Position numbers and translations under genes: made by a program. Positions 3,062 through 61,029 of a DNA stretch of 64,000 nt are shown here, piece after piece. The notes under the pieces were generated by a model that ran no database searches, had not been told where the DNA came from, and saw only the letters and a program-made list of their open reading frames with translations. Source of the DNA: Niastella koreensis GR20-10 (lineage in GTDB: Bacteria; Bacteroidota; Bacteroidia; Chitinophagales; Chitinophagaceae); NCBI RefSeq assembly GCF_000246855.1, contig NC_016609.1:6274744-6338743 (forward strand), written 5' to 3'. How positions within the stretch are numbered: the first letter of the stretch is position 1; each line of letters opens with the position of its first letter.

Positions 3062-3069
3062 AGAAAGGA

Positions 3070-3105
3070 TTGACAGGTTAACACGTTAACGTGTTAACCT
3101 GTCAA
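3070..3105. terminator. Perfect 36-base palindrome between convergent genes
   Basis: The 36 bases are exactly self-complementary, centred on TTAA at 3086-3089, with arms of the form TTGACAGGTTAACACG. It lies 8 bases after the pbpC stop and 8 bases before the end of the convergent DUF2807 gene. There is no uridine tract after it. It can fold on both transcripts and may act as a bidirectional terminator. Its words (gttgac, gttaac) recur in spacers at 12385, 26581 and 42780. Confidence 0.55.
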
Positions 3106-3113
3106 TGTATCAA

Positions 3114-3833
3114 CTAATCAACTTTTTTTACACTCCCGCTACCGGAAACATTAGTACTTGTTTGTGCTGCGCCTTTATAACGCACATCACCGCTGCCCGA
3201 AACATTGGCAACCAGTTTTACACTGGAATACACCTGCACATTACCACTGCCGGAAACATTCATATTAGATTCCTCAGCCATTAAGTTGAAAGCTTTTATA
3301 TTGCCGGAACCGCTTACATCCCCACTGATCTTCTTTGTTTCACCAGCCAGTTCAACTCCACCGCTGCCGGAAACGCTGGCATCAATTTCAGGAGCATCCA
3401 CCTCAATTTTAATATCGCCGCTTCCTGAGGCGCCCAACTTCAGTTTATCGTCGCTGGTGATCTTTGTTTCTGATTTGATATTGCCAGATCCGCTTGAATG
3501 AATGACATTGAACACCGGAGAAGTAACATATATATTTACATGCCGGCGCGGCTGTAGCCAGATGTTATCTTCGGTTTCAATATTCAACACATCATTTTCG
3601 ATATGCATATCGATATGCGGAATGATATTTTCCTCCGCTTCTATTTTTACGCCGGCGGGACTGCCCTGGGTCAGGAATACATCAAAATCAGAACTCAGCG
3701 CAACGCCTTTAATATCGCCGAACTGTTTGGTCTGGGTTGTCATCTGGCCATTTCCCTTTACACGGTGGCCATGAAAGAAACAAGAGTTTAACCCAATAAG
3801 TGCAATCAATAAAACAAGTGATATCTTTTTCAT
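3114..3833 (-). CDS. DUF2807 (GIN/auto-transporter adhesin head-like) lipoprotein, GSG type
   Basis: The 239-residue protein starts MKKISLVLLIALIGLNSC, a lipoprotein signal with Cys18. The rest is a DUF2807 domain, a right-handed beta-helix-like fold of unknown role found on the surface or in the periplasm of Bacteroidota. Turns carry a repeating GSG motif (for example SGSGNIKS, SGSGDIKI, SGSGGVEL, SGSGNVQV, SGSGDVRY). It lies 27 bases downstream of an equally long paralogue in the same orientation, so the two are probably co-transcribed and arose by tandem duplication. No function can be assigned from sequence. Confidence 0.85.
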   Translation of the reverse strand: MKKISLVLLIALIGLNSCFFHGHRVKGNGQMTTQTKQFGDIKGVALSSDFDVFLTQGSPAGVKIEAEENIIPHIDMHIENDVLNIETEDNIWLQPRRHVNIYVTSPVFNVIHSSGSGNIKSETKITSDDKLKLGASGSGDIKIEVDAPEIDASVSGSGGVELAGETKKISGDVSGSGNIKAFNLMAEESNMNVSGSGNVQVYSSVKLVANVSGSGDVRYKGAAQTSTNVSGSGSVKKVD

Positions 3834-3860
3834 TTGAGGCCTGGTTAGTGGTTGTTTGAA

Positions 3861-4580
3861 TTATTTTACCTGGGTAATACTGCCATTACCGGTGATATGG
3901 GTAGAAGGTTGTGCATTTCCCTTATAATGCAGATTGCCGTTGCCGGTAACAGTGACATCCAGCTTTACACTTGCATACACCTCAGCATCACCGTTGCCCA
4001 GTATTTTTACCTTCGTATCTTCCGACATCAGGTCGTAAGCCTTTAAATTTCCATTGCCGGTGAGTTTACATTCAAAGCTTTTCGACTGGCCCTTTAACTC
4101 AATGCCGCCATTACCGGTTAAATCAGCTTCCACCTCAGGCGCATCCACATCCAGGTTAATATGGCCATTGCCAGCAACTTTCAGGTCAAGCCTGGAAGAA
4201 TCGGTAATTTTTGTCTGACCAACTATATCACCTGATCCATAGGAATGGATCTCCTTAAACTGGGGAGCAGTTACATAAATTTTTATTGACCGGCGGGGGC
4301 GCAGCCATATTTCATCTTTAGTATCTATCTGTAGATTGTTATTATCAAGGTAGGTTTCAATATAAGGCAGCAGATTGCTTTCTGCTTCAATTTTTACCGA
4401 TGCCGGGCTTCCAACAGCCACATATACATCAAAATCTCCATGAGACGAAACGCCGGTAAAGCCACTTACCTGCCGGTTCTCGGTGGTAACCTGTTCATTT
4501 CCTTTTATGCGTTTGCCGGGAAGGTGGCAACTGGTTCCAATAATAGCTGTCAATACAAACAGGGCGGCCCATTTTTTCAT
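3861..4580 (-). CDS. DUF2807 lipoprotein, GNG type (tandem paralogue)
   Basis: I start at the ATG at 4580 because it gives MKKWAALFVLTAIIGTSC, a good lipoprotein signal; an in-frame ATG at 4628 would bury it. From this start the protein is 239 residues, the same length as its neighbour. The DUF2807 beta-helix has GNG where the neighbour has GSG at nearly every matching turn (GNGHINL, GNGGIEL, GNGNLKA, GNGDAEV, GNGNLHY, GNGSITQ). It is the upstream gene of a two-gene operon. Function is unknown; the Asn ladder suggests a stacked beta-helix turn. Confidence 0.85.
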   Translation of the reverse strand: MKKWAALFVLTAIIGTSCHLPGKRIKGNEQVTTENRQVSGFTGVSSHGDFDVYVAVGSPASVKIEAESNLLPYIETYLDNNNLQIDTKDEIWLRPRRSIKIYVTAPQFKEIHSYGSGDIVGQTKITDSSRLDLKVAGNGHINLDVDAPEVEADLTGNGGIELKGQSKSFECKLTGNGNLKAYDLMSEDTKVKILGNGDAEVYASVKLDVTVTGNGNLHYKGNAQPSTHITGNGSITQVK

Positions 4581-4669
4581 ATAAGTAGGTTTAGTTTGAA
4601 TATGTATTACAATATACCCGGTTTTCACAGCATTTGACGCTGAGGTAGTAAAAATGTTACAGGAGAATG

Positions 4670-4876
4670 CTATAAATAGAAACTAATAACCCATCCTTCC
4701 TGTATCAAAAATTCCAGATCGTTACGAATAGTTCTGTCATTCCATCACGCATCCGTAGAATCCCCGTTCCGGCCTGCCACCAGTTCTTTTGCCAGGTCTG
4801 AATTCAAATTTCTTTTGAACTCAACCATATACCCCTCTCCACTTTGCTGTATCGTTTCCAGTACCTGTAATGTCAT
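4670..4876 (-). pseudogene. Internally deleted remnant of an AlbA_2 (Schlafen-type) regulator
   Basis: From an ATG at 4876 the minus strand reads 43 codons with VEFKRNLNSDLAKELVA, matching the start of AlbA_2 domain proteins (usual form ..VEFK..L..DLAKE.VAFANT.GG). It reaches a TGA at 4747-4745. In the same frame directly after that stop comes TIRNDLEFLIQEGW, which resembles the winged-helix piece found at the C terminus of such proteins, then a TAG at 4672-4670. So the N and C ends seem joined with the middle lost. The rest of the 4581-5101 spacer holds no gene I can support. Confidence 0.5.
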
Positions 4877-5086
4877 CTCAGAGTAGTTTTGGATTCGCAC
4901 ACAACTTCATGTCAACAACACTAACAAGTTGTCTTTCAAGAATAAATATATTTAATAAGGAACAAATAACGAGCGGGCGGAACAACTTAAGCGATTAAAA
5001 CGGCTGGTGCCACAACCAGGCTAATAACTTCTATAATAACCCCAAATGCTTACAGCTTATAGCTTGGGGCTTGTAGCTGTATTTCT

Positions 5087-5094
5087 TACCTTCG
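5087..5094 (+). promoter_or_regulatory. Candidate -7 element of guaA, very close to the ATG
   Basis: TACCTTCG matches the Bacteroidota -7 box TAnnTTTG with one change. It ends 7 bases before the guaA ATG at 5102, so a transcript from it would have almost no leader. A word array (agcttatagcttggggctt) occupies 5050-5076 just upstream. Confidence 0.45.
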
Positions 5095-5101
5095 CACCAC
5101 C

Positions 5102-6634
5102 ATGACGGAAAAGATTCTAATTCTCGATTTCGGCAGTCAGTATACTCAATTGATTGCCAGGGCCGTCCGGGAGGCCAACGTGTATTGCGAAATAATTCCC
5201 TATCACAAAAAAGTTGAATTTGATCCTTCACTGAAAGGTATAATCCTGTCGGGTTCGCCTTTTTCTGTGAACGACGTCAATGCCCCGGAAGTAGATGTAC
5301 AAGCACTTAATCAGCAACTGCCCGTTTTAGGAGTTTGCTATGGCGCCCAGTTAACGGCCAAACAATTTGGCGGACAGGTAGCCAAAAGTAACAAACGCGA
5401 ATACGGTCGTGCCCTCATGCACAAACAAACCGACGACGTGTTGCTGAAAGATGTAATGGAGAAATCGCAGGTTTGGATGAGCCACAGCGACTCCGTTCTG
5501 CAATTACCTGCCGGGTTCAATGTACTGGCCACTACCGACGGTATCCCCTTCGCCGCCTTTAAAAAGAACGGCGAAACCAATCCCCTGTACTGCGTACAAT
5601 TTCACCCCGAAGTGTACCACTCTACAGAAGGGAAAAAAATGATTAAGAACTTCCTCGTAAATATCTGTGGCTGCAAACAGGACTGGACGCCCGCTCACTT
5701 TATCACCGATACGGTTAACGACCTGAAAAAACAGATCGGCGATCGTAAAGTGATAATGGCCCTGAGTGGAGGTGTTGACTCTACTGTTGCCGCAACATTG
5801 ATCCATAGAGCCATTGGTAAGAACCTGTACGGCATTTTTGTGGACAACGGCGTGTTGCGTAAAAATGAATTTGAACAGGTACTGGAAACCTACAACACCA
5901 TTGGCCTGAACGTAAAAGGTGTAAATGCCAAACAGTTGTTTTACGATCAGCTGGCAGGCAAAACCGATCCCGAAGCCAAACGTAAAACCATCGGCCGCCT
6001 GTTTATTGAAGTATTTCAGCAGGAAGCAAAAGCTTTTGAAGGTGTTGAGCTGTTAGGCCAGGGTACTATTTACCCCGATGTGATCGAGAGCGTTTCTGTG
6101 CATGGTCCTTCAGTAACTATCAAATCGCACCACAATGTGGGCGGTTTACCCGATATTATGCACCTGGAACTGGTAGAACCCCTCCGGTTCCTGTTTAAAG
6201 ATGAAGTACGCCGCGTGGGGGCAGAACTGGGAATTCCCAGCGATTTGTTAAATCGCCATCCCTTCCCCGGCCCCGGTTTGGCCATCCGCATTCTGGGTGA
6301 AATTACGCCTGACAAAGTGGAATTATTACAGGAAGCCGATCATCGCTATATCCAGGGATTGAAAGAACATAAATTATACGACCAGGTATGGCAGGCAGGC
6401 GCCATCTTACTACCGGTTAAGAGTGTGGGAGTTATGGGTGATGAAAGAACGTACGAATTCACCGTAGCTTTACGTGCGGTAACTTCGGTAGATGGCATGA
6501 CCGCCGACTGGGCTCACCTCCCTTATGAATTTTTGGCACATATTTCGACTGATATCATCAACAATGTAAGAGGTATCAACCGGGTGGTATACGACATCAG
6601 CAGTAAACCACCTGCAACGATAGAATGGGAGTAA
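5102..6634 (+). CDS. guaA: GMP synthase (glutamine-hydrolysing)
   Basis: GuaA aminates XMP to GMP with glutamine and ATP in the cytoplasm, the last step of guanine nucleotide synthesis. The class I glutamine amidotransferase domain has GVCYGAQ with nucleophile Cys79, and His168/Glu170 in QFHPE. The ATP pyrophosphatase P-loop is SGGVDS at 222-227. The C-terminal dimerisation domain ends KPPATIEWE, the usual finish of the family. Length 510 residues is typical. guaB, the preceding enzyme, is in this window at 47654-49156 on the other strand. A hairpin follows directly. Confidence 0.97.
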
Positions 6635-6643
6635 ACGTCTTTT

Positions 6644-6680
6644 TTAAAGAGTTACCCCGCCTGCGCGGGGTAACCTTTAA
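6644..6680 (+). terminator. Hairpin after guaA
   Basis: A ten-pair perfect stem GTTACCCCGC (6651-6660) with GCGGGGTAAC (6665-6674) around a CTGC loop extends by six more pairs through one bulged A (TTAAAG with CTTTAA). It starts 10 bases after the guaA stop. The T tract that follows is weak, so it may also stabilise the 3' end or act with a read-through transcript. Confidence 0.65.
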
Positions 6681-6738
6681 TATGTGAGGTATGAATAGCA
6701 ATAGGACAACTCAACACTTAGTCAATAAAGAATTCCCT

Positions 6739-7983: not shown

Positions 7984-8016
7984 TTCAAAGTTCCAGGTTC
8001 AGAGTTAAAAAACTTT

Positions 8017-8069
8017 AGGTGTGCCGCGTATCCTTACAATGTTGAGGAAAACGTGGCACACCTTTTTTT
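8017..8069 (+). terminator. Intrinsic terminator with long loop
   Basis: Stem AGGTGTGCC (8017-8025) pairs with GGCACACCT (8055-8063), lengthened inward by CGT/ACG, and runs into seven T. It ends the binding-protein gene. It sits inside the arms of a larger inverted repeat (7989-8006 with 8139-8156, 17 of 18 matches). Confidence 0.7.
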
Positions 8070-8080
8070 GCTCATAACTT

Positions 8081-8157
8081 TGAACTCGGAACTCGGAACT
8101 TGGAACTTGGAACTCGGAACTCGGAACTCGGAACTCGGAACTCTGAACTTGGAACTA
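8081..8157 (+). repeat. Eleven tandem heptamers (GGAACTC type)
   Basis: Eleven 7-base units run without a gap: consensus GGAACTC, with TGAACTC, GGAACTT and GGAACTA variants. The reverse complement of 7989-8006, just after the preceding gene, matches 8139-8156 at 17 of 18 positions. The array lies 11 bases before the exonuclease ATG. Since 7 is not a multiple of 3 the array makes a 21-base coding period (ELGTRNS), which produces a spurious N-terminal extension if an upstream start is used. Confidence 0.9.
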
Positions 8158-8168
8158 ACACTTATTTT

Positions 8169-9188: not shown

Positions 9189-9191
9189 GAA

Positions 9192-10826: not shown

Positions 10827-10940
10827 GAAACAGGTTTCAGGTTCCAGGTTAACTTGTTTTTCCCTGAAACCTGAAACATGCAACAGCTCCTTCCTGAACT
10901 TTTAACACCCAGGTATCACCACTGCCAAATTTCAAAATCG
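10827..10940. repeat. Word array with inverted repeat after the ligase
   Basis: The spacer opens with caggtttcaggttccaggtt. AGGTTTCAGG at 10832-10841 pairs with CCTGAAACCT at 10863-10872. It may serve as the ligase 3' hairpin. The rest of the spacer carries no gene. Confidence 0.6.
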
Positions 10941-12345: not shown

Positions 12346-12384
12346 TTAAAAGGTAAATACAAAATGTAGAATGAAAAATGAAAA

Positions 12385-12452
12385 AGGAAGTTGACGAGTT
12401 AACCAGGAAGTTGATAGAGTTGATAATGTTGATAGAGTTAACAAGTTAATAG
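12385..12452 (+). repeat. gttgatagagttgat word array
   Basis: The spacer 12346-12599 begins with degenerate words of 9-10 bases (gttgacgag, gttaaccag, gttgatagagttgataat, gttgatagag, gttaacaag). There is no gene in the spacer. Confidence 0.65.
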
Positions 12453-14567: not shown

Positions 14568-17183
14568 ATGAGGCTTCAAACAACTACCGGATATACTACG
14601 ATCGTTAACTGGCTGGCAAACAAAAACAACCATCCGTTCACCTTCCAGGAGGAAACCTGGCAACATATTATTAATGGCAAAAGCGGATTGGTAAACGCCC
14701 CCACAGGCTGTGGTAAAACATTTTCTGTATTCCTGGGCGCCCTGATCGATTTTATCAATCACCATCCGCACGACTGGAAATCAAAAGGCAATAATGGCTT
14801 ACAACTGTTGTGGATCACGCCCCTGCGGGCCCTGGCCAAGGATATTGGCCGGGCCATGGAAGAAGTGGTGAGTGAGCTGGGCATGCAATGGAAAATAGGC
14901 ATCCGCAACGGCGATACCGACATCAACGAACGGGCGCGACAAAAACGCCGCATGCCCGAAGTATTGATCATTACCCCGGAAAGCCTGCACCTGCTGCTGG
15001 CGCAAAAAGGCTATCCCGACACTTTTGAAACTCTGCAGATCATGGCCGTTGACGAATGGCATGAGCTCATCGGCTCCAAACGCGGCGTACAGGTAGAGCT
15101 TGCCGTTTCACGATTGGTAGCCTTGCGAAATGGACAATTAAAGGTCTGGGGCATCTCCGCAACCATTGGTAATCTGGAACAGGCCCAGGAGGTTTTGTTA
15201 TCATCTGTTTATAACTCCTCCCCCTCCACCGGTGGGGTCCGGGGGAAGGCAGTTATCGTCAAAGCCAACATCCGCAAAGACGTTGTTATTGAATCCATCA
15301 TCCCCGATGAAATAGAAAAATATCCCTGGTCGGGCCACCTGGGTTTAAGGCTCATCCATAAAGTACTGCCCATCATACACAACAGCCGCACTACCCTCAT
15401 CTTCATCAATACCCGCGGCATGAGCGAGCAATGGTACCAGGCATTGTTAACCGCTGCCCCCGATCTGGCAGGCGCTATAGCTTTGCACCACGGCAGTATT
15501 GAACAGGAATTGCGCATTTGGGTAGAAGAAGCCCTGCACACCGGCCGGCTCAAAGCGGTGGTATGTACCGCCAGTCTTGACCTGGGTGTTGATTTTCGCC
15601 CGGTTGAAACCGTTATACAGGTAGGGTCGCCCAAAGGAGTTGCCCGCTTTTTACAACGCGCCGGGCGAAGTGGTCATAGTCCCGGCGATGTAAGCCGCAT
15701 CTATTTTCTGCCCACCCATTCGCTGGAACTGGTAGAAGCAGCCGCCCTGAAAAATGCGGTGGAAGAAACCTTTATTGAAAGCAGGGAACCCATGCTGTTG
15801 TGCTTTGATGTACTGATCCAGTACCTGAGCACCCTCGCCATTTCAGATGGCTTTTTACCGGAACCATTGTTAAAAGAACTCCGCACCACTTATTGTTACC
15901 GCGACATAACCGACAGCGAGTGGATGGCCATCCTGGAATTTATTACCTCGGGCGGCAATGCCTTACAACAATATGATGAATATAAAAAGGTAGAGGTCAT
16001 CGATGGGGTGTTTCGTATTACCAGCCGGCGCATAGCCATGCGGCACCGGATGCACATTGGCACCATTGTAAGCGAAGCCATGATGAAAGTGAAGTTTGTG
16101 AGTGGCGGTTTTATTGGGGTAATTGAAGAATGGTTCATCACCCGTTTATCGCCCGGCGATGTGTTTACCCTGGCGGGCCGTCAACTGGAGCTGGTGACCA
16201 TTAAGGATATGACTGCGCTCGTACGTAAATCAAATGCAAAAAAATCGATAGTCCCCAGTTGGCAGGGCGGGCGTATGCCGTTGAGTGCCAATTTAGGAAA
16301 GAAGCTGCGCGAGAAGTTTGAAGAAGCAAGGGACATTCAGGAAGGCAGAGGGCAAAAGGCAAAGGGCAAAGGGAAGAATACAGAAGTAAGAGATCCGAAA
16401 ACCGGGAATCCATTGCCAGCCAGCCCCGACAAGTCGGGGATTGCCGATTCACAATTGCCGGCTAAGCTGCCTGATATAGAGTTGCAGGTTCTGGAACCAT
16501 TATTTAACCTTCAGGAAAGGCTCTCCCATGTTCCCGGTGCTAATGAATTATTAATTGAACATATTGAAACGAAGGACGGCTATCATCTTTTTGTATATCC
16601 GTTCGAGGGGCGGCTGGTGCACGAGGCCATGGCGGCCATTCTGGCCTGGCGCATCAGTAAGATAACGCCTATTACATTTTCTTTTGCTATGAATGATTAT
16701 GGGTTTGAACTGTTGAGCGATCAACCCATACCGGTGGATGATACCAATGTGTATGAACTGTTCACCCCCAATGATCTATTGGCTGATATTCAGCGAAGTG
16801 CGAATGCAACAGAAATGGCAAAACGAAAATTCCGCGATATCGCAGTTATTGGCGGACTTATTTTCCAGGGTTATCCCGGTGAACAAAAGAAAGCCCGGCA
16901 TTTACAATCGTCTGCCTCGTTATTATTCAATGTATTTTCAGAATATGAGCCGGGTAATTTACTATTGCGCCAATCCTATCAGGAAGTTTTCGATCAGCAG
17001 ATGGAAGAAGTACGGCTGCGCAATATGTTGGAAAGAATACAACGATCGACCATCATCATTACATTTCCCCAGCAGTTAACCCCATTCTGTTTCCCCATAA
17101 AAGTAGACAGTATGCGGGAAAACCTCACCTCGGAAAAACTGGAAGACAGGGTAAAAAGAATGCAGGCACAATTGAACCAATAG
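14568..17183 (+). CDS. Lhr-type DEXH helicase, ligase-associated
   Basis: This superfamily 2 helicase shows Walker A APTGCGKTF (about residues 45-53), motif Ia TPLRALAKD, the DEWH box (about 163-166), SATIGN motif III, and motif VI QRAGRSGH. The C-terminal Lhr-core winged-helix region contains SGGFIGVIEEWF and FTLAGRQLELV. It belongs to the DEXH helicase family that accompanies the PP_1105-type ligase (TIGR04121 type), and is thought to unwind or translocate on 3'-tailed DNA. Two inserts add length (871 residues against roughly 810-830 usual): a G-rich palindrome at residues 216-228 and a 45-residue linker at about 590-634. Confidence 0.9.
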   Translation: MRLQTTTGYTTIVNWLANKNNHPFTFQEETWQHIINGKSGLVNAPTGCGKTFSVFLGALIDFINHHPHDWKSKGNNGLQLLWITPLRALAKDIGRAMEEVVSELGMQWKIGIRNGDTDINERARQKRRMPEVLIITPESLHLLLAQKGYPDTFETLQIMAVDEWHELIGSKRGVQVELAVSRLVALRNGQLKVWGISATIGNLEQAQEVLLSSVYNSSPSTGGVRGKAVIVKANIRKDVVIESIIPDEIEKYPWSGHLGLRLIHKVLPIIHNSRTTLIFINTRGMSEQWYQALLTAAPDLAGAIALHHGSIEQELRIWVEEALHTGRLKAVVCTASLDLGVDFRPVETVIQVGSPKGVARFLQRAGRSGHSPGDVSRIYFLPTHSLELVEAAALKNAVEETFIESREPMLLCFDVLIQYLSTLAISDGFLPEPLLKELRTTYCYRDITDSEWMAILEFITSGGNALQQYDEYKKVEVIDGVFRITSRRIAMRHRMHIGTIVSEAMMKVKFVSGGFIGVIEEWFITRLSPGDVFTLAGRQLELVTIKDMTALVRKSNAKKSIVPSWQGGRMPLSANLGKKLREKFEEARDIQEGRGQKAKGKGKNTEVRDPKTGNPLPASPDKSGIADSQLPAKLPDIELQVLEPLFNLQERLSHVPGANELLIEHIETKDGYHLFVYPFEGRLVHEAMAAILAWRISKITPITFSFAMNDYGFELLSDQPIPVDDTNVYELFTPNDLLADIQRSANATEMAKRKFRDIAVIGGLIFQGYPGEQKKARHLQSSASLLFNVFSEYEPGNLLLRQSYQEVFDQQMEEVRLRNMLERIQRSTIIITFPQQLTPFCFPIKVDSMRENLTSEKLEDRVKRMQAQLNQ
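15213..15250 (+). repeat. G-rich palindromic element in frame inside the helicase gene
   Basis: AACTCCTCCCCCTCCACCGG then TGGGGTCCGGGGGAAGGC, adding NSSPSTGGVRGKA to the protein without a stop. It aligns with the ligase copy through CTCCCCCTC, a four-base loop, a GGnGGGG block and GGGGG.AA. Confidence 0.7.
16336..16470 (+). repeat. Composite word array and CCCCGAC palindrome in frame inside the helicase gene
   Basis: First an AAGGCAAAGGGCAAAGGG word array (16352-16373), then a perfect hairpin CCCCGAC-AA-GTCGGGG at 16434-16449. Together they encode a low-complexity linker (GRGQKAKGKGKN, then PASPDKSGIADS). Both parts occur as separate repeats in spacers (40895; 22474). Confidence 0.65.
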
Positions 17184-17908: not shown

Positions 17909-18033
17909 ATAACTACCTACCCCTAGTAATGTTACCTTTCAAAATGTTTATAAGTATTATCCGAAATAATATAATTTCGTAAAAATGCTATAGTATTTGT
18001 CACGAAAATTTAAGATTTTAGGGCCGAATTTGG

Positions 18034-18057
18034 ACGTCGTGTAATCCGACGTTTTTT
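18034..18057 (+). terminator. Terminator-like hairpin in the leader of the response regulator
   Basis: ACGTCG (18034-18039), loop TGTAATC, CGACGT (18047-18052), then five more T. It lies 35 bases before the ATG at 18093, so it either ends an upstream transcript or acts as an attenuator. Confidence 0.45.
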
Positions 18058-18092
18058 AGGATCCTTATCTTATTAAAAACAATACAACCCGC

Positions 18093-18767
18093 ATGAAAAA
18101 ACCTGACACCGAAGGCGTTATTAAAGTAGCTATTGCAGACGACCATGCCCTGTTCAGGGCCGGCGTTCGTACAGCCCTCGCTGCTAAAAGGGATGTAGAG
18201 TTAATTGCCGAAGCCGACAATGGCATGCAACTCTTAAACCTGCTCAGACACATTGAGCCAGACATCATTCTGTTGGACATTCAGATGCCTATTATGGATG
18301 GCATCCAAACCCTGCCTGAGATTCGCAAACTTCGGCCAGAAGCAAAGGTTATCATTCTTTCCATGCACAACGATCATTCGATGATCAGCAAGTTGATGGA
18401 AATTGGTGCTAATTCTTACCTCACCAAAAACTCCGATTCAGAAACCATTTACCAGGCCATTAAAACCTGCTACGAACAGGAATTCTTTTTTAATGAGCTT
18501 ACCAACAAAGCCCTGCTCACTGGCTTGCGTACAAAACGCACAGATATAGCCGGCCCCCAGGACGTAAATCTTTCTGAAAAAGAGATCCGGGTTTTGAAAC
18601 TCATGTGTGAAGAGAAAACGACCAAAGAAATCGCTGATATTGTTGAAATCAGCCCCCGTACCGTTGAAGCAATCCGCGACAAACTCAAAACCAAAACCGG
18701 CGCCAAGTCAATGGCCGGCCTGGTGATGTATGCGGTAAAAAACGGTATCATTGACCAGAACGTGTGA
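18093..18767 (+). CDS. NarL/FixJ-family response regulator
   Basis: Receiver domain with acidic pair Asp16/Asp17, phospho-acceptor Asp62 in LLDIQMP, and Lys112 in YLTK; then a LuxR-type helix-turn-helix (NLSEKEIRVLKLMCEEKTTKEIADIVEISPRTVE form, residues about 157-215). It is a cytoplasmic DNA-binding regulator. No kinase gene is adjacent. It is closely similar to the regulators at 55093 and 58786, including the C-terminal AGLVMYAVKNGII ending. A strong terminator follows. Confidence 0.93.
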   Translation: MKKPDTEGVIKVAIADDHALFRAGVRTALAAKRDVELIAEADNGMQLLNLLRHIEPDIILLDIQMPIMDGIQTLPEIRKLRPEAKVIILSMHNDHSMISKLMEIGANSYLTKNSDSETIYQAIKTCYEQEFFFNELTNKALLTGLRTKRTDIAGPQDVNLSEKEIRVLKLMCEEKTTKEIADIVEISPRTVEAIRDKLKTKTGAKSMAGLVMYAVKNGIIDQNV

Positions 18768-18854: not shown

Positions 18855-18939
18855 GCCTATGGGTCCCCACACTATACCGGCCAGGTATTGAGCCGACTCG
18901 CGGTTTGTACAGAGATTTTACCGAATCTTTTTATCACCT

Positions 18940-19040
18940 AACAAGGACATAACAGGGACCTTACAGGGACATAACAGGGACCTTACAGGGAGAAAGTCCC
19001 TGTTATGTCCTTGTTAATCCCTTGTTTGGTCCTTGTTAGC
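18940..19040. repeat. ggacataacaggg direct and inverted word repeat
   Basis: A 22-base unit beginning GGACATAACAGGGACC occurs twice in tandem (18945, 18967). AACAAGGACATAACAGGGA at 18940-18958 has an exact 19-base reverse complement at 18997-19015, so the region folds into a long hairpin. More words (ccttgtttggtccttgttag) run to about 19040. Confidence 0.8.
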
Positions 19041-19977: not shown

Positions 19978-20066
19978 GTTATTAGATACGTAGGTGCTTA
20001 TGATGAAACACAATAACCTACTAACTTAATAACCCAATAACTTAATCATAATATAAATTAAGCGCC

Positions 20067-22378: not shown

Positions 22379-22602
22379 AATTGATTGTATTTTATATCAG
22401 CTAATTGGAAAAAATAATCCCGTGTAACGGGAGGAGCAGAGGCTGATAAAGAGTGGGCAGCGTGCAGACTTGTCCCGGCTTTAGTCGGGGAAGAGGCGCA
22501 AATATAAAGCGGGTTTATTCAATTATACAAATAATAAAAAATCGAATGCCGAAGTTCTTATCCTTCAACATTCGATATTCAATATTCAACATTCAATATT
22601 TT
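22379..22602. repeat. Spacer with CCCG/CGGG palindrome and attcaacattcaat words
   Basis: A palindrome-like CCCGGCTTTAGTCGGG at 22474-22489 is followed by a word array at 22567-22602 (attcgatattcaatattcaa type). The array ends next to the stop of the lipoprotein gene. No gene is seen. Confidence 0.6.
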
Positions 22603-24000: not shown

Positions 24001-24116
24001 TTTTCTATATTACTATGTTTTGAAATTCTAAATGTCAGGTTATTAGGTTCGTACGTTATTGAGTTCGTACGTTAGGTTCCTGAGTTTTGAACTTAATAAC
24101 TTAAGAACCTACGAAC

Positions 24117-24779
24117 TTACAAACCAAAGAACTGGGAACTCACCATCTTAATCAACTGCTCATTCAATAACTGAATAGCCTCTTTCATTTTCCATTTGGA
24201 CTTATCCCGCTCACCTACCATATTGGAGATTGCACGTAATTGGATAAATGGAATTTTTTCAAGGAGGGCTACATAATGAAAGGCGGCGCCTTCCATGCTC
24301 TCAACAACCGGCTGATATTTTTGTTGCAATTGTTCAATACGCGCCGGCCTGGTAGTGATCTCATTTATAGTGACTGACTTTACCAGCGGAAGGTTGTATT
24401 GCTGCAGCAATTCCGTATGTTTATTCTCCAGGTGCTTACCGGTATAGGGATCGGTGATCTGCGGCAGTCCCATATCGAAGATATCTTTAAACTCATTATT
24501 TTCTTCCACGCCCAGATCGCCGGTTACCTCATCCTTTATCAATACCAGGCTGCCAGGAGGATAGTTAGCACGGTAACTGCCGCCAATACCTGCCTGGATC
24601 ATTAAGTGAGGCCGTTGTTTGTCAATGGCTTTTGTAAGCCAGTAGGTGGTGCTCATACTGCCGACGCCCGTATTCAGGATCTCAAAATGGTTATTACCAA
24701 TGATACAATCCCGTTCGGCTAAATAATTTATCGTGGGCTGAATTTCAAAGTTGGTGGCGGCTACCAGTAAAATTTCCAT
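24117..24779 (-). CDS. mqnB: Futalosine hydrolase
   Basis: MqnB releases hypoxanthine from futalosine. The start ATG at 24779 gives MEILLVAATNFEIQP; an in-frame TTG-type start nine codons upstream is unlikely. The nucleosidase fold shows MIQAGIGGSYRANYPPGS, and VVESMEGAAFHYVAL with the ME-E motif that binds ribose in the MTAN/phosphorylase-like family. Length 220 residues. A TACATTTG box ends 4 bases before the ATG. It is paired with mqnD. Confidence 0.92.
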   Translation of the reverse strand: MEILLVAATNFEIQPTINYLAERDCIIGNNHFEILNTGVGSMSTTYWLTKAIDKQRPHLMIQAGIGGSYRANYPPGSLVLIKDEVTGDLGVEENNEFKDIFDMGLPQITDPYTGKHLENKHTELLQQYNLPLVKSVTINEITTRPARIEQLQQKYQPVVESMEGAAFHYVALLEKIPFIQLRAISNMVGERDKSKWKMKEAIQLLNEQLIKMVSSQFFGL

Positions 24780-24783: not shown

Positions 24784-24791
24784 CAAATGTA
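24784..24791 (-). promoter_or_regulatory. -7 element of mqnB, 4 bases from the ATG
   Basis: On the minus strand TACATTTG, then CGCT, then ATG. This is a full match to TAnnTTTG and suggests a leaderless or near-leaderless mRNA. Confidence 0.5.
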
Positions 24792-25000
24792 AGCTTCAAG
24801 CCGCAAGCTGTAAGCTGCAAGCCCTGAAATTCAATGTTTCCGATTAAAATCAAAGACCCTGAGTTTTGAAGCCTTGTAGCTTGGGGCTTCAAGCTTGCGG
24901 CCCGGAGCCTGTAACATAAATTCCCGGTTCTGTCCTTTAAATCCCAACCCTTATCCGGAGAGCTTTGTGCCCGGTACCCTGAACCTTGTATCTTGTCCCT
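24792..25000. repeat. aagcttgcggc word array with inverted copy in the mqnB/PTPS divergent spacer
   Basis: GCCGCAAGCT near 24790 pairs with AGCTTGCGGC near 24892, within longer degenerate words (gctgtaagctgcaagcc against cttgtagcttggggcttcaa). A third word type (ccctgaaccttgtatcttgtccc) runs from about 24967. Confidence 0.65.
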
Positions 25001-26572: not shown

Positions 26573-26580
26573 TTTTACAA

Positions 26581-26702: not shown

Positions 26703-26792
26703 TATATATCATTTCTTACCCCACTTCCGACTTCTTTTTTGGATAGTTAAAACCTTTGTGGCATTTTTGTTTTTTAAACCCCTTTTTACATT

Positions 26793-27683: not shown

Positions 27684-27754
27684 AAGAAGGCAACGAGGCA
27701 ACCGCCATCGAGGCAACGAGTAACAGCCTGACAGATAGTTACCCCCTAAACAAA

Positions 27755-27791
27755 CAAAAGTGGATCACCTATAACAGATGATCCACTTTTG
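27755..27791. terminator. Bidirectional terminator between fabD and the S41 peptidase gene
   Basis: CAAAAGTGGATCA (27755-27767) pairs exactly with TGATCCACTTTTG (27779-27791), so the stem is bordered by A on one side and T on the other for use on both strands. Flanking aaggcaacgaggcaaccg words (27686-27715) and ttgttgccttgagg (27811-27824) form an outer inverted pair. Confidence 0.8.
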
Positions 27792-27827
27792 TATTTATAA
27801 TTGTATTTAACTTGTTGCCTTGAGGCC

Positions 27828-31474: not shown

Positions 31475-31720
31475 ATAGTGAAGTTGCAGGTTACAGGTTC
31501 CAGGTTTCAGGGGGTAAGGCATAAACAGCGAATCGGTAATAAGGGCCATGCAACCTGTAACTTGTAACAGGTAACGCCTGTTTTGCCAGCGAGGTAAAGC
31601 CTGTATATGGATATTGTTCGTTAGCCATTGTTTAAAAATATTGAATATCAAATGAAAAATGTTGAATATAGAAGTAAAAATTACTTCTACATTCAACATT
31701 CAATACTCAAATTCAATATT
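31475..31720. repeat. Two word arrays upstream of the amidohydrolase
   Basis: GTTGCAGGTTACAGG (about 31485) faces CAACCTGTAACTTGTAAC (about 31552) as an imperfect inverted pair, and attcaacattcaatactcaa words fill 31628-31720 with a gaagtaaaaattacttc hairpin in the middle. No gene is seen. Confidence 0.6.
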
Positions 31721-40886: not shown

Positions 40887-40977
40887 CAGTGGTGAAAAGG
40901 CAAAGGGCAAAGAAAATCCCGGCGATGCCAGGTCGCTTATTAGCACGCGAACTATGTTTGCCGTTTGCCGTTTCACG

Positions 40978-42508: not shown

Positions 42509-42825
42509 ATTAAAGAAAGGCAGCAGGCAATAGGCAGTGGGCTCCCGATAGCCATCGGGATTCAGTGGGGAAAAGGCTGCAAGCCACAAGCTTCAAGCAT
42601 AAAGCCCAAAGGTTAAAGCAAAAAGCAATACACTTCCGGATTTTGGCTTTGGCCTTTAACCTTTCCGCTTTAACCCGTTTTCTTCACTTCAACATTCGAT
42701 ATTCAATATTTGTATTCGCCTTTATCAACCCTGTCAACGTTATCAACGCTATCAACCTACCGCATAATTCAACTTAGCCTTCTTCTAGTTAACCTGTCAA
42801 CGTGTCAACACGTCAACCAATCAAC
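42509..42825. repeat. Mosaic of word arrays between SDR and the PKD cargo gene
   Basis: In 317 bases there are aaaggcagcaggcaataggcag words, the CCCGATAGC palindrome copy B (42540-42569), gctgcaagccacaagcttcaagc words (42577-42598), aaaggttaaagc words, attcgatattcaatatt (42699), and gtcaacgttatcaacgctatcaac and gtcaacgtgtcaacacgtcaac words (42729-42750, 42786-42815). No gene is seen. Confidence 0.65.
42540..42569 (+). repeat. CCCGATAGC palindromic repeat, copy B
   Basis: Same 30 bases as 40857-40886 with one substitution, same orientation, also preceded by an aaagaaaggcag word. Confidence 0.8.
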
Positions 42826-47525: not shown

Positions 47526-47653
47526 CAGACTTAGTTTAAAAAAATTACAGGTTACAAGTTTCAAGTTACAGGTTTTAAGTTCGAGACTCATGATTAAGTC
47601 TAAAACCACCTGCCTTCCCTGGAACATGTAACCTGCAACCTGGAACAAAAAAA
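47526..47653. repeat. acaggttacaagtttcaag word array with inverted copy
   Basis: TTACAGGTTACAAGTTTCAA (from about 47546) faces CATGTAACCTGCAACCTGG (from about 47625). It fills the whole spacer between guaB and the DUF4105 gene. Confidence 0.65.
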
Positions 47654-50014: not shown

Positions 50015-50392
50015 GTTGACAGGTTGACAAGGTAACTGGTTGACGAGATAGATGTAAGCTGCCTTGCAACTTGAAACGTGTAACTCGAAACCTGGGTTCG
50101 CCCCATTTACTGCAGCATCACTTAACTGGGTAACCTGTGCCCGGTGACTGGTAACTGGCAACTGGTAACTTTTCCAGCAGCTATTATTCAGTTATATTTG
50201 TCATGAACTTCATATATGTAACAATGTTTGAAGGGGCCTGTCTACGCGCGACCAGACATTCCCGCCAGTAATTTGAATACTTCCTTTCCTATTTCCTACC
50301 CCCACGCACATCACCGGTTGTGATCAATTCAACCGGAATGGCGGCTATACCTATTGTTGAGATTACCCCCTATGTGGTAAAAGGCATTCTAT
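50015..50392. repeat. 378-base spacer with gttgacaggttgac and ggtaactggtaact words
   Basis: Word arrays at 50015-50047 (gttgacaggttgacaaggtaactgg) and 50120-50170 (gggtaacctgtgcccggtgactggtaactggcaactggtaact). A CCGGTTG/CAACCGG inverted repeat lies at 50316-50338. No gene is seen. Confidence 0.6.
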
Positions 50393-54516: not shown

Positions 54517-54540
54517 GCTGCAAGGTATTTCAAAATCTAT

Positions 54541-56617: not shown

Positions 56618-56671
56618 GGAGGTTTCTTAACACCCGGAACCACTTTTTACAACCTCTAAAAACTTACTACT

Positions 56672-57061
56672 ATGATGCAGACTGAACTCCTCACTAAACG
56701 TAACATTGCTACTATTGGTGAAGAAATTACCCATGAACTCGGCGCTGAATTGGTAACCAACTACCGCAAAGCTCATCCGAATGATGTACAGGGTTACATT
56801 ATCGGAAAAGAGATCCTGAACCAGATCCTGGCTCAACCTGGTTGCGCCGGTATCCAGTTCTACAATGCTATCAACGAATTGGGACAAAAAACCCTGGTTT
56901 ACGTAGGCCTCGATCAAAATGGCAAACAACTGATTAACTACACTGTAGTGACTGAAGACGCCCAACTTCAGAAACAAAAAGGCATTGTTGCTGACAGAAG
57001 CATCCCCTCTCCTTCCGGCGACGATATTTTCGGGGATGATGGATGGTTTATTATTGATTAA
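56672..57061 (+). CDS. Small cytoplasmic protein of unknown function
   Basis: 129 residues, starting at ATGATG. No signal peptide or membrane segment. The N-terminal half is helical by appearance (RNIATIGEEITHELGAELVTNYRKA), then comes a YIIGKEILNQILAQPGCAGIQFYNAIN block, a strand pair (QKTLVYVGLDQNGKQLINYTV) and an acidic end (SGDDIFGDDGWFIID). I have the impression of a recurring Chitinophagaceae family but cannot name it. It precedes the membrane protein, kinase and regulator genes on the same strand, so a role in that signalling block is possible. Confidence 0.75.
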   Translation: MMQTELLTKRNIATIGEEITHELGAELVTNYRKAHPNDVQGYIIGKEILNQILAQPGCAGIQFYNAINELGQKTLVYVGLDQNGKQLINYTVVTEDAQLQKQKGIVADRSIPSPSGDDIFGDDGWFIID

Positions 57062-57218
57062 ATAAACCTGAATCTCTATATTTGAGGTAAAGCGCCCTGA
57101 TATAGAGAGTTTTTTCTTACATATCAGCTTATATTCTTCGCTATTACCCGTAATTCTCTTTCTTGCCTTTTTAAGGCATACCAAAAGGAAGGAATTATGG
57201 GTAATCTTTATTTATTCA

Positions 57219-57776
57219 TTGTACTCATTCCTGAATGATATAATACTCTTAAACCTGTCGGCCAAGCTCTTCCTGAGCACATACACCCTGGTTGAGTTTT
57301 TCCTTTTCAGTTATTTCATCTGGCTCATTATAGAAGGCCGCTTCTTCAAAAAAGTGATAGCTACTGTTTCAACATTGTTTATTATATTTATCTGTTATTA
57401 CTTTTTTACCACAAAATGGAACTTTTTTGATTCAGTGCCAGTAGCTTGCGAATCAATTCTGATCTTTACATTTTCCCTGTATTATTTATTCGAGCAAATA
57501 AACAAACCCAGGGTACTTTTTATATATAATACTTCCATGTTCTGGGTTATACTTGGCTTTTTGGTTTATTTGGCAGGGTCTTTCTTCATCTATACGTTCG
57601 TAGATGAGATAGATAGCAGGGACATCGGGAAATTCTGGTTCATCACATTCATATTCAATACCATAAAAAATCTATTCTTTAGCATTGCTTTTTCGCTGAG
57701 AGAAGCAAAGGACAAAAACAGCAGTAGCCTGTCCTCATACGATAATTTTTTTAAAAACCCCTATAACCCATTATAA
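57219..57776 (+). CDS. Multi-pass membrane protein preceding the histidine kinase
   Basis: From the TTG at 57219 the protein has 185 residues and about five membrane segments (TYTLVEFFLFSYFIWLII, VIATVSTLFIIFICYYFF, and FWVILGFLVYLAGSFFIY among them). The same frame stays open back to 57072 and encodes further membrane-like sequence (SSLLPVILFLAFLRHTKRK, then ELWVIFIYSLYSFL) that aligns with the N terminus of the membrane protein at 59565 ([14 protein letters not shown]). No ATG, GTG or TTG lies there, so the true start may be ATA at 57102, ATC at 57123 or ATT. The kinase begins 20 bases after its stop, so the pair is likely a split sensor. Confidence 0.75.
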   Translation: MYSFLNDIILLNLSAKLFLSTYTLVEFFLFSYFIWLIIEGRFFKKVIATVSTLFIIFICYYFFTTKWNFFDSVPVACESILIFTFSLYYLFEQINKPRVLFIYNTSMFWVILGFLVYLAGSFFIYTFVDEIDSRDIGKFWFITFIFNTIKNLFFSIAFSLREAKDKNSSSLSSYDNFFKNPYNPL

Positions 57777-57796
57777 ACCCCGCCTCTCACATATTA

Positions 57797-58642
57797 GTGA
57801 TTCTGCTGCAGGCTGTACATGGGGCCAGCCAGTTTCCGGTGGTACTGTATTTTGGCACCATTGGCATGCTGGTTCTTACCATTGGCCTCATCGTTTTCAT
57901 TATTTTCCATCAACGTAAGGTTATACGTTACCAGATGCAGTTGCAATACATGGAACAGGAGCAACAGAAAATGCTGTTGAATGCCTCCATTCGCCTGCAG
58001 GAAGAGGAGCGGCAACGAATTGCGGCCGATTTACACGACGATGCCGGCCCCCTGCTGGCTACCGCGCGTTTATACCTGAACGAGAACCTGGTGAACCTCG
58101 ATAAAACCACCCAGCTGCAAAGCATATACAACGCCAAGCAAATCATTGACGATACTATTCAGCTGATCCGTAATATCTCACACAGCCTGATGCCCCCTAC
58201 CCTTAAAAACTTCGGGTTGGAATCGGCTGTAAACGATCTGTTCCAGAAAATCAGCGGCTCGGGCAGCATGAACGCCAGCTGCCGTTTTCACGATTACCGC
58301 GAACGCCTGCACGCCGACCAGGAATTGATAATTTTCAGGGTAATCCAGGAATTGGTGAATAATATCCTGAAACACAGCAACGCCAGTTTTATTCATCTAA
58401 CCCAGAACTTGAGTGGGAACAAATTGTATATTCGCCTCCATCACGACGGCCGCGGTATTACCCAGGCGGATTTTGATAAGCTGAATAAAAGTAATGTGGG
58501 TTTGGGCCTGAAAAACATTCAGAGCAGGTTGAAACTGTTACACGGACGTATTTATTTCGAAAAAGACATTTCGCAAACATACTATAAGGTTACTATCGAA
58601 ATTCCCCGTTTGGAGGAAGAAGCGGTAGCACCTCAATTATAA
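57797..58642 (+). CDS. Histidine kinase (HisKA_3/NarX-type) without its own sensor domain
   Basis: Start GTG at 57797, 20 bases after the membrane-protein gene. One membrane segment at residues 17-37 is followed by a coiled coil, then the phospho-acceptor His80 in IAADLHDDAGPLLATARL and the ATPase domain with ELVNNILKHSNA (N box), DGRGI (G1) and GLGLKNIQSRL (G2). It has no periplasmic sensor, so sensing may be done by the adjacent membrane protein. Its partner is probably the LuxR-type regulator 143 bases downstream. Confidence 0.9.
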   Translation: MILLQAVHGASQFPVVLYFGTIGMLVLTIGLIVFIIFHQRKVIRYQMQLQYMEQEQQKMLLNASIRLQEEERQRIAADLHDDAGPLLATARLYLNENLVNLDKTTQLQSIYNAKQIIDDTIQLIRNISHSLMPPTLKNFGLESAVNDLFQKISGSGSMNASCRFHDYRERLHADQELIIFRVIQELVNNILKHSNASFIHLTQNLSGNKLYIRLHHDGRGITQADFDKLNKSNVGLGLKNIQSRLKLLHGRIYFEKDISQTYYKVTIEIPRLEEEAVAPQL

Positions 58643-58764
58643 AATATTGGTTCATATTTTGATAAGGGCTACTACTATCTTAAGATGTAGTACGGAATAA
58701 GTGTTTATACTAACGTAAAACCCATACCCCCTGAATACCTAAACACTTAAAATTTTTAGTAATT

Positions 58765-58772
58765 TAGTTTTG
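58765..58772 (+). promoter_or_regulatory. Candidate -7 element of the response regulator gene
   Basis: TAGTTTTG matches TAnnTTTG and ends 13 bases before the ATG at 58786. It implies that the regulator also has its own promoter inside the block. Confidence 0.4.
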
Positions 58773-58785
58773 CCAATATCAAACA

Positions 58786-59445
58786 ATGATGGGACCTATT
58801 AAAGTGGCTATAGCTGATGACCACAAAATATTCCGTAAAGGAGTAATATTGTCGTTAAGGCCTTATACAAACATAAAATTCGTACTTGAGGCAGAGAACG
58901 GCCAGGAACTGTTGGATAACCTGCCAACGGCCCCTGAGCAACCTGATGTGATATTAATGGACCTGCGTATGCCCCTGAAAGATGGCATCGAAACTACGAA
59001 AGTAATTGCCCGCCAATATCCTAACATCCACGTAATTGCGCTAACGATGTATGAAGATGAACGGTTTGTGAGCCATATGATGGAAATAGGCGCTAACGGC
59101 TACCTGCTCAAAAGCGCCGACCCTTCCGAGATCAAGAAGGCAATAATGGAGGTAATGAGCAAAGGGTATTACCTGAATAACTTTGTAAACAGGATACTTT
59201 TAAAAAAATCACACGCCCGGGTTAAGGTGGTGCCCAGCCTGAACAGCGAAATCACCCTCAGCGACCGCGAACGGGATGTGATAAAATATATTTGCATGGA
59301 GTTTACCGCCCATGAAATTGCACAAAAATTAGAGGTAAGTCCGCGTACTGTAGAAGCTATCAAAGACAGGTTGATGGAACGCTTTGGAGCTAAAAACACG
59401 GCTGGCCTGGTATTTTTTGCAGTTAAGAATAACCTGATTGATTAA
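58786..59445 (+). CDS. NarL/FixJ-family response regulator
   Basis: Receiver domain with Asp11/Asp12, phospho-acceptor Asp59 in LMDLRMP and Lys in YLLKSADP; then a LuxR helix-turn-helix (LSDRERDVIKYICMEFTAHEIAQKLEVSPRTVEAI form). 219 residues. It follows the histidine kinase and precedes the second membrane protein, which suggests a sensor-kinase-regulator unit. The ending KNTAGLVFFAVKNNLID matches those of the two other regulators in the window. Confidence 0.93.
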   Translation: MMGPIKVAIADDHKIFRKGVILSLRPYTNIKFVLEAENGQELLDNLPTAPEQPDVILMDLRMPLKDGIETTKVIARQYPNIHVIALTMYEDERFVSHMMEIGANGYLLKSADPSEIKKAIMEVMSKGYYLNNFVNRILLKKSHARVKVVPSLNSEITLSDRERDVIKYICMEFTAHEIAQKLEVSPRTVEAIKDRLMERFGAKNTAGLVFFAVKNNLID

Positions 59446-59564
59446 ACTCCCGGCAATATTTGACTAATAACGTAAAGCCGGCATTATGTTGATACCCTTA
59501 TTAGCAGCGTTAAAGACAATACAGACCCCTATGAAGAACCGGTTTGGCCCTGAACTCTTAGACC

Positions 59565-60290
59565 ATGGTAGAAACCGGTGGAAGTATATTTATTGCCCTG
59601 TCGTTGGTAGTTATGCTACTGTCGTTATTACCCGTGGGCATACTTTATGTTCGTAAAGTTGCGGCTACCGCTGTTCTTAACGTCCTGAAAGTTCTTTGTC
59701 TTTTCGTAATCTGCCAGTACCTCACGCTTTTCTTTATTCAACCCGGCTTCCCCAACCTGCAAATTGCCTTTAAACTCGTTGAATTTACGCTTGTATATTA
59801 CCTGTTTAATTTATTGATGACATCCGCACCCGGAAAAGACATCCTGAAAATGGTGCTGGTATCTTTCCTGTCTGTAACTATTACTATTTACGCATTAAAA
59901 GGCCTTACAGCTTATACAGATTTACTGACCATAATACAGGCCGGTATTTTAACCGTGCTGGCCGTAGTTATTTTATTACAACTCATCAACAACCGGCACA
60001 TTGTACTGGCCAGTGAACCGGCATTCTGGATTGCGGGTGGCCTCTTATGCTATAATGGAATGGTGGTATTGATGGAAGCCATGGCCGGCAGTCACACCAA
60101 CCTGTCGCAGCAAATAAAACAGGAAAAAAGTATTATTATAACGCTGGCCGATATGCTGCGAATGGTGTTCTTTATTGTAGCTGCTTCAGTTGCCGGTAAC
60201 AAGAATGATAACAATAACAAAGAGGTCGACTTTCAACCGATGCCTCCCCTGTTTCCCCCACCAGTTAACCGGCGCACCATCAAATATTAG
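59565..60290 (+). CDS. Multi-pass membrane protein, paralogue of the one at 57219
   Basis: 241 residues with about seven membrane segments ([112 protein letters not shown]). The FW..GGLL.Y.G block and the layout match the protein encoded before the kinase gene. The cytoplasmic tail is Asn/Pro-rich. No kinase follows; the next genes are convergent CoA-transferase genes, overlapping its stop by 4 bases. It may be a second sensor for the same pathway. Confidence 0.8.
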
Positions 60291-60946
60291 ATCTTCATTT
60301 CGGGAATATCGCCTTCAATTACCAGCTTACCCAATGTTTTATTGCGGATCTCCTCAACCGTTACGCCAGGCGCCCGTTCAAGCAGTTTAAACCCGCCCTG
60401 GGGCAATACATCCAGTACGGCCAGGTCGCTTACTATGCGCTTTACACATTTAACACCGGTCAATGGCAACGTGCAGGCTGGTAATACCTTCGATTCCCCT
60501 TTGGGATTGGTATGCATCATGGCCACAATGATGTTCTTGGCGCTGGCTACCAGGTCCATGGCGCCGCCCATGCCCTTTACCATTTTGCCCGGGATCTTCC
60601 AGTTGGCAATATCCCCGTTCTCAGAAACCTCCATGGCGCCCAGTACGGTCAGGTCAACCTTGCCTGCCCTGATCATGCCAAAGCTTTCAGCACTGTCAAA
60701 AAAAGCACCACCGGGGATCACCGTCACTGTTTCCTTACCGGCATTAATCAGGTCGGCATCAATATCCGATTCAACCGGGTATGGGCCCATGCCCAGGATG
60801 CCGTTCTCCGACTGCAGAATAACTTCAATACCGTCAGGTATATAATTCGACACCAGGGTTGGAATGCCAATACCAAGGTTCACATACATACCATCTTTCA
60901 ACTCCTGAGCAATGCGTTTTGCAATACCGTATTTATCTAAAGCCAT
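60287..60946 (-). CDS. scoB: Succinyl-CoA:3-ketoacid CoA-transferase, beta subunit
   Basis: The subunit holds the catalytic Glu47 in LQSENGILG, which forms the CoA thioester. [49 protein letters not shown] and [10 protein letters not shown] are family signatures. Length 219 residues. With the alpha subunit 83 bases upstream on the same strand it moves CoA from succinyl-CoA to acetoacetate, allowing ketone body or branched-chain breakdown. The spacer between them holds tagtttgtagtttgaag words. Confidence 0.93.
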
Positions 60947-61029
60947 TTTAGTTTGTAGTTTGAAGTTTGTAGTTACTGGTTGCTACCGCGCTTCGGGTTT
61001 TCCCTTCTTCATTCCTCATTTCTAATTTC

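Follow-up and report, generated by a model that had tools for sequence, protein, structure and literature searches.

The short tandemly repeated repetitive (STRR) sequences of heterocystous cyanobacteria are degenerate heptanucleotide repeats that lie in tandem between genes, many per genome. Repetitive extragenic palindromic (REP) elements and REPINs are copies of a short palindrome and are tied to Y1 transposases. Here, we describe arrays of short degenerate words in the spacers of Niastella koreensis GR20-10, a member of the Bacteroidota, starting from a window of 64,000 nucleotides (positions 6,274,744-6,338,743 of the single 9,033,684-base contig; host genome, 9.03 Mb). The elements are tandem degenerate words of 7, 8, 9 or 11 bases, often paired as a word X followed by its reverse complement X', and are found mainly past stop codons. 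They look like a relative of the cyanobacterial heptamer repeats, itself undescribed.

Like STRR, the Niastella arrays comprise heptads that follow one another in tandem between genes, vary at particular positions and are present at many sites. Niastella belongs to another phylum, however, and its arrays are not confined to period seven but also have periods of 8, 9 and 11. In addition, they form mirrored pairs of fixed order and multi-word composites, features for which cyanobacteria have hardly been examined (12 arrays and 1 pair in 250 kb from a single plasmid, a sample too small to serve as a control). The accessible part of PMC4692102 mentions heptamers in Calothrix and Nostoc, and describes GGGAATC in Xanthomonas and GGGGAYT in Nostoc as spacer heptamers that lie nearer the upstream gene and vary among related genomes. 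The Niastella arrays share this placement and variability, but in that part of the source each genome has a single word, whereas Niastella has a vocabulary and replaces words at orthologous spacers. TAACTGA direct repeats are reported, in excerpts of PMC4679880, from Beggiatoaceae, cyanobacteria and five Bacteroidetes. These are heptad arrays with a strain-specific spread, as in Niastella, but the excerpts describe one word, in the main genome mostly directly upstream of starts, whereas Niastella has many words past stops. REP elements, bacterial interspersed mosaic elements (BIMEs) and REPINs are likewise dispersed, intergenic, palindromic and mosaic, as far as the consulted portions of PMC3733652, PMC2817692 and PMC3116915 go; the Niastella arrays, however, fall into several word classes instead of many copies of one short palindrome. 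The kind of element is known from the heptamers of cyanobacteria, Xanthomonas and Beggiatoaceae. The vocabulary, the composites, the constant arm order and the word replacement set the Niastella arrays apart from the earlier descriptions considered here. No description of such arrays in Bacteroidota was found in the open-access literature searched.

Results

Arrays in the spacers of the host genome

A sequence-only reading of the window had pointed to 17 array sites and had described the words as nearly absent from genes. At 16 of the 17 sites an array scored at least 9 between 20 bases before and 70 bases after the position given. At the remaining site, 27686, no array was detected, though the spacer shows GGCAACGA words by eye. 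The host genome (G000) was sampled as 60 stretches of 20 kb (1.2 Mb). Arrays were detected by self-match scoring at lags of 5-13 in spacers of at least 40 bases, with genes taken from a small home-made caller. The 207.5 kb of spacers held 237 arrays (1.14 per kb), as against 2 after dinucleotide shuffling; the 969.5 kb of coding sequence held 32 (0.033 per kb). The arrays are real, and their near-absence from genes and from shuffled spacers holds. Scaled from the sample, and if it is typical, the whole genome would contain about 1,800.

At a threshold of 11, the spacer arrays had periods of 7 (134 arrays), 8 (69), 11 (16), 9 (12), and 6 and 12 (3 each). They occur in 33 of 90 convergent, 100 of 379 tandem and 16 of 117 divergent spacers. 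Arrays cover 0.09-0.14 of the sequence up to 100 bp from stops versus 0.01-0.06 near starts, an enrichment past stops. Among the few coding arrays is a GGCAAAG heptad array at 16342-16373, inside the Lhr-type helicase gene at 14568-17183. At 61965-62024, likewise within a predicted gene, a 24-base unit is repeated in tandem about 2.5 times.

A shared vocabulary with fixed and free positions

The host sample, the window and 454 kb from nine congeners together yielded 521 arrays, whose words were clustered. Heptad arrays (326) gave 27 clusters, with 305 arrays in the nine largest, and octad arrays (121) gave 8, with 104 in the three largest. One cluster holds 17 of 25 nonad arrays. The 11-mers are more varied than the other periods (34 arrays, 14 clusters). 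In total, 19 clusters have at least three arrays and are common to several sites and species, and one is present in all ten species. The idea that each site uses its own word thus gives way to a small vocabulary common to the genome and the genus, with recurring multi-word composites. The claim that a form is shared beyond one sequence stands: the arrays have a period of 7, 8, 9 or 11, are often mirrored and lie past gene ends, yet they comprise several word classes, and further Bacteroidota have arrays of this form built from different words. The window gave 0 Rfam matches at the gathering score.

In the ten classes examined, constant positions carry one letter in 81-100% of all units, whereas at free positions the commonest letter reaches only 39-74%. 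In seven of the ten, neighboring units are clearly more alike at free positions than units of different arrays (for example, 0.86 versus 0.41 and 0.58 versus 0.42). The difference is marginal in one class (0.48 versus 0.45) and missing in two (0.53 in both comparisons; 0.42 versus 0.49). Therefore, local duplication explains only part of the pattern.

Dispersed composites

When 185 array spacers were compared with one another, 833 pairs matched. The best 30 of these extend over 66-231 bases at 73-97% identity, and several span non-repeat linkers. One dispersed composite, A, has as its modules, in order, AAGCYNY heptads, AAAGC heptads, CTTTAACC heptads, the linker CCCGTTTTCTTCACTTC, TTCRAYA heptads, TATCAACYY nonads and GTYAACNN octads. 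With 42570-42780 as the query, the host genome held at least 49 matches including the query itself (40 of 335 candidates scored). With at most 40 candidates scored per genome, eight of nine congeners held weak pieces (best E 4.6e-10) and G001 gave no match; a search of the plasmid collection gave no match either. In 20 of the 49 copies, inspected by eye, the order of the modules is constant, whereas the number of units and the modules at the ends are variable. The matched parts begin and end at varied places, many of them near module edges by eye. Two further observations concern longer repeats. Loci L031 (8811-9062) and L038 (19103-19368) have in common a longer-period repeat of AAATCCTGGGAAAACAGGG-like units, a further dispersed family, and a word composite is repeated in tandem with a 114-base period at G005:C242:226494-227260, with seven matches among those listed.

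Inheritance and replacement among congeners

Among the named relatives found, Niastella sp. OAS944 is the nearest (FabD 98% identical). The gene order of the window is largely common to nine congeners, one of which was compared over 8 kb only. At orthologous spacers, 132 of 319 species pairs had a word class in common and 187 had none, compared with 15% sharing at random sites. Word classes are therefore partly inherited and often replaced. Spacer 24001, for instance, has octads in the host, CAGGTTN heptads in G002 and G006, AAGCYNY heptads in G003 and no array in G009. Two other sites retain a related hairpin core with altered flanking words: 7984 and, in most species, 27684. An exact long array, GCCGATT repeated about 13 times, occurs in G002.

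Where the same class is kept at the same site (156 pairs of arrays), fixed positions are 0.938 and free positions 0.558 identical. For arrays of a class at different sites (266 pairs), the values are 0.941 and 0.453.

Mirrored pairs, arm order and folding

An inverted partner lies within 150 bp of 39% of 315 arrays, compared with 4% in a control in which the word was matched to flanks of arrays from another class; a separate direct copy was found for 6%. The return of the word as its reverse complement is thus real, but the statement that it applies to most sites was too strong. Within a class, the order of the arms is uniform: all 65 Niastella pairs (15 classes, with 60 pairs in the ten classes that have at least two) and all 75 pairs (seven classes) of G018 obey it. 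G018 is from the same family but a different genus; it has a word set of its own and a density of 3.02 arrays per spacer kb. The first pair sets the order of a class, so that 50 of the 65 and 68 of the 75 pairs were able to disagree; the Niastella pairs pool the host and congeners, and some are orthologous and hence not independent. A cluster-free test shows the G-rich arm first in 32 versus 7 of 44 host pairs, 22 versus 4 of 27 congener pairs, 13 of 13 in G018 and, among other Bacteroidota, 6 versus 0 of 7; the remainder are ties. In a larger G018 set it is first in 67 versus 4 of 75. Canonical terminators in the same sequence have the opposite polarity, with a C-rich first arm in 37 versus 8 and 10 ties. 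Arrays near gene ends are oriented accordingly, G-rich in 112 versus 54 after stops and C-rich in 64 versus 25 before starts, and solo arrays lean likewise (30 versus 16 and 21 versus 5). An order rule borne by the element and one imposed by the genes are inseparable here, because in any type of spacer X first is equivalent to having X follow stops and X' precede starts.

The two arms of a site match each other better than they match arms of the same class elsewhere, in 43 of 54 Niastella comparisons (p 2.5e-6) and in 65 of 72 in G018 (p 1.7e-11). Shuffling the order of the units brought no drop in the match in Niastella (p 0.1) and a slight one in G018 (p 0.03). Permuting letters, a weak test of arm complementarity at free positions, reached p<=0.05 in none of 64 pairs. 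The two results agree, because unit order adds no signal in Niastella and only a slight one in G018. Mismatches in the transcript orientation show no excess of G.U over A.C (tandem spacers, 57 A.C versus 39 G.U).

As had been proposed, the spacers can fold: 12 of 13 window stretches beat their shuffles, with z from -2.2 to -9.6, four of them between -8 and -10; the exception is 50015-50095, at -1.4. Folding is not special to arrays, however. Convergent spacers have a median fold z of -3.4 without and -4.5 with arrays. Tandem spacers fold better with arrays than without (-2.39, n=73, versus -0.63, n=191), and in them inverted repeats of at least 14 bp are present in 5% of 208 spacers without and 19% of 88 with arrays. 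The arm pairs do not have the GC-rich hairpin with an immediate U tract that defines an intrinsic terminator. A strict detector, applied to a set that leaves out weak-arm pairs such as that at 7984, found canonical terminators between the arms in 0 of 65 pairs, and the T fraction in the 12 nt past the right arm shows a small rise, to 0.39. In some other array spacers, for example 7984-8168, a canonical terminator is visible by eye.

Distribution and candidate gene families

Among loci of at most 21 kb from named Bacteroidota, small samples that include coding repeats, arrays were frequent in Cnuella, Flavihumibacter and several but not all Flavobacterium; none were seen in Bacteroides fragilis or in three of four Algoriphagus. 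Across 16 sampled genomes, density ranges patchily from 0 to 3.0 arrays per spacer kb.

The host genome has only two Y1_Tnp matches. Heptad arrays (1879-1976) directly adjoin the better one (locus L212) on one side, with octad arrays further away on both sides, whereas the second (L213) has no array. Of 14 genomes, one has 9 Y1_Tnp matches and the other 13 have 0-4. Neither this count (Spearman 0.28, p 0.38, 12 genomes) nor that of reverse transcriptases (0.43, p 0.16, 12 genomes) is significantly correlated with array density. RRM-domain matches number 12 in the host genome versus 0-3 in each of 66 Bacteroidota outside the family. Their count tracks density, with kinship ignored (0.66, p 0.014, 13 genomes; 0.59, p 0.045 on 12 genomes), with the exceptions of G011 and G013, which each have 7 matches and yet 0.11-0.17 arrays per kb. 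We regard this correlation as a lead only.

Array sites in the window

The sites are listed by position, strand (forward, reverse or unstranded) and content; fold z is relative to shuffles.

3070..3123, unstranded: octad GTTRACNN array, a hairpin in itself, between convergent genes; fold z -9.1 (3062-3113)
7984..8006, forward: left arm of AGTTCNR-type words, by eye and under the array threshold, preceding the hairpin GTGTGCC..GGCACAC and a T run; fold z -6.3 (7984-8130)
8076..8156, reverse: right arm of about 11 GAACTYK heptads; array scored
10831..10885, unstranded: heptad pair, CAGGTTN at 10831-10850 and reverse partner at 10863-10885; fold z -2.2
12355..12439, forward: heptad array at 12355-12389, octad-like words, and nonad GTTGATARN array at 12409-12439; match to locus L072
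17249..17316, reverse: two heptad modules, CTTTCRC-like and GCTTGAG-like; cross-locus match to L074
18936..19037, unstranded: 11-mer pair, ACCTNACARGG at 18936-18991 and reverse partner at 18996-19037; fold z -9.6
19978..20046, unstranded: octad AGTTATTA-type hairpin directly past a stop codon, of which the right arm at 20007-20046 alone scores as an array; fold z -3.0
22564..22600, reverse: heptad TTCRAYA array; array scored
24035..24124, unstranded: octad hairpin GGTTATTAGGTTCGTA / AACTTAATAACC; array scored; fold z -5.3
24791..24822, forward: heptad AAGCYNY array; array scored
26574..26638, unstranded: octad GTTRACNN hairpin, retained at the site in G009 and G004; fold z -8.2
27684..27827, unstranded: GGCAACGA words mirrored about the hairpin GTGGATCA..TGATCCAC, arms unscored; fold z -7.1
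31483..31575, unstranded: heptad CAGGTTN pair at 31483-31511 and 31549-31575; fold z -3.9
31633..31718, unstranded: heptad GAATRTY pair; array scored; fold z -8.3
40956..40973, reverse: heptad TTTGCCG array, with reverse words at about 40896 by eye; array scored
42570..42830, forward: composite element A, multi-word; genome matches and copy layout
47545..47646, unstranded: heptad CAGGTTN pair; array scored; fold z -3.9
50015..50170, unstranded: GTTGACNN words and GGTAACT heptad array at 50134-50170; weak fold, z -1.4 (50015-50095)
60949..61038, unstranded: heptads TAGTTTG at 60949-60984 and TCATTTC at 60998-61038; array scored

Several of these sites differ among congeners. The 7984 hairpin has a related hairpin with different arms, the arms at 27684..27827 vary, and the hairpin at 24035..24124 has no counterpart in G009 and different words in G002, G007 and G003. 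The spacer at 47545 has CAGGTTN- or GTTACCR-type words in the seven congeners compared, and 11-mers of the ACCTNACARGG type are also visible in G009, G004 and G001. For the octad hairpin at 26573, folding gives a 22-bp stem, and a mismatch at free positions suspected by eye was not borne out.

Conservation was also seen outside the arrays. The leader of the fabD-like gene (26730-26792, GGATAGTTAAAACCTTTGTGGCATTTTTG...) is near-identical in the eight congeners compared, unlike the rest of its spacer, and is probably a conserved promoter and leader. The leader at about 17960-18092 of the gene at 18093 seems strongly conserved in the genus; the encoded 224-aa protein is 98-100% identical in three congeners.

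Discussion

Our data exclude two simple accounts, independent local words as the sole origin of the arrays and a single repeat family. We have a slight preference for regarding the arrays as the Bacteroidota counterpart of the cyanobacterial STRR heptamers, that is, as dispersed modular repeats spread by copying between arrays together with slippage. A spacer would gain its array, or exchange it for another, by gene conversion or template switching with an array at a different site as the source. The words may act as microhomology for this copying, and slippage would alter the number of units. Arrays would persist only where they are tolerated, between genes, and would be lost where genes are harmed. 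The order rule probably arose in one of two ways: C-rich words may be selected against in 3' trailers, and G-rich ones in 5' leaders, or the arrays may descend from founder elements that were polar. A function for the cell, if any, would most likely be mild, in folding or insulating 3' ends.

Several points weigh against this reading. Copying by itself does not account for the contrast between 94% identity at fixed and 56% at free positions of the same site, a contrast that has the look of sequence-specific recognition or constraint. The closest genomes are only 87.8% (G008, 7 kb compared) and 85.1% (G009, 55 kb) identical to the host; therefore, neither a recent donor and recipient nor a clean junction came to light, and copying was not observed in progress. 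Genes were called, arrays detected and clusters formed with tools of our own, at thresholds that we set. In addition, a small activity resembling that of a transposase, from an unrecognized family, may be at work.

The constraint on the fixed positions is the clearest hint that something recognizes the words. It is conceivable, though doubtful, that the arrays represent a polar class of modular DNA elements, undescribed and widespread in Bacteroidota, with genus-specific vocabularies of 7-, 8-, 9- and 11-base words, G-rich first and C-rich last. Such a class would be kept by dedicated machinery, either a copying enzyme or word-reading RNA- or DNA-binding proteins, with RRM proteins as one candidate, which would fix some positions and leave others free. 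Non-autonomous elements of the REP, REPIN or miniature inverted-repeat (MITE) type, moved by a transposase in trans and with each word class as one family, are an unlikely source. The dispersal, the host-specific amplification of composite A and the class-wise fixed arm order, as with inverted-end elements, resemble mobile elements, as does the one Y1_Tnp gene adjoined by heptad arrays, but the scarcity of such genes in the host, the second locus without an array, the poor correlation with density and the varied ends of the composite A matches argue against them. We give little weight to the idea that the words are selected as sites bound in DNA or at mRNA 3' ends, for example by an RRM protein. 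The contrast between fixed and free positions, which persists across species at the same site, and the RRM correlation are consistent with it. However, the binding is putative, the correlation ignores kinship and has two exceptions, and words are often replaced at orthologous genes; therefore, a given word is dispensable at most sites.

Selection for folding, in which the arrays are terminators or mRNA-stabilizing hairpins and the word is arbitrary, also appears quite improbable. Nearly all window stretches fold, arrays are enriched past stops, and tandem spacers with arrays fold better and more often hold long inverted repeats. Yet the vocabulary is small, array-free convergent spacers fold nearly equally, and arrays occur in divergent spacers too. 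Moreover, free positions show no covariation between arms (in a weak test), unit order is unmirrored in Niastella, A.C mismatches are not rarer than G.U, and the arm pairs hold no canonical terminator, with only a small rise in T and an arm polarity opposite to that of terminators. The sequence-only reading had suggested such selection for 3' hairpins, for which the support is mixed, the better match of arms within a site being in its favor. It had also suggested local duplication. Purely local slippage with fold-back templating, the period being set by the polymerase footprint, is very unlikely. Exact long arrays such as that of GCCGATT and the similarity of neighboring units in seven of ten classes favor it, and PMC4692102 mentions slippage of the polymerase as a hypothesis for heptamers. 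In three classes, however, neighbors are as different, or nearly so, as units of separate arrays, and occurrence among relatives is patchy. The shared vocabulary and the dispersed composites with their linkers show that the words are not local inventions. Local slippage is contradicted as the sole cause by the dispersed composites, but is still a contributor.

Heptamer repeats are on record from scattered groups of bacteria, and there is no consensus on their mechanism. Arrays of this kind may affect genome assembly, the calling of small genes and terminator prediction in Bacteroidota. The Niastella arrays are dense, follow rules and are replaced amid conserved gene order; therefore, their spread, their constraint and their effect on gene ends are directly measurable.

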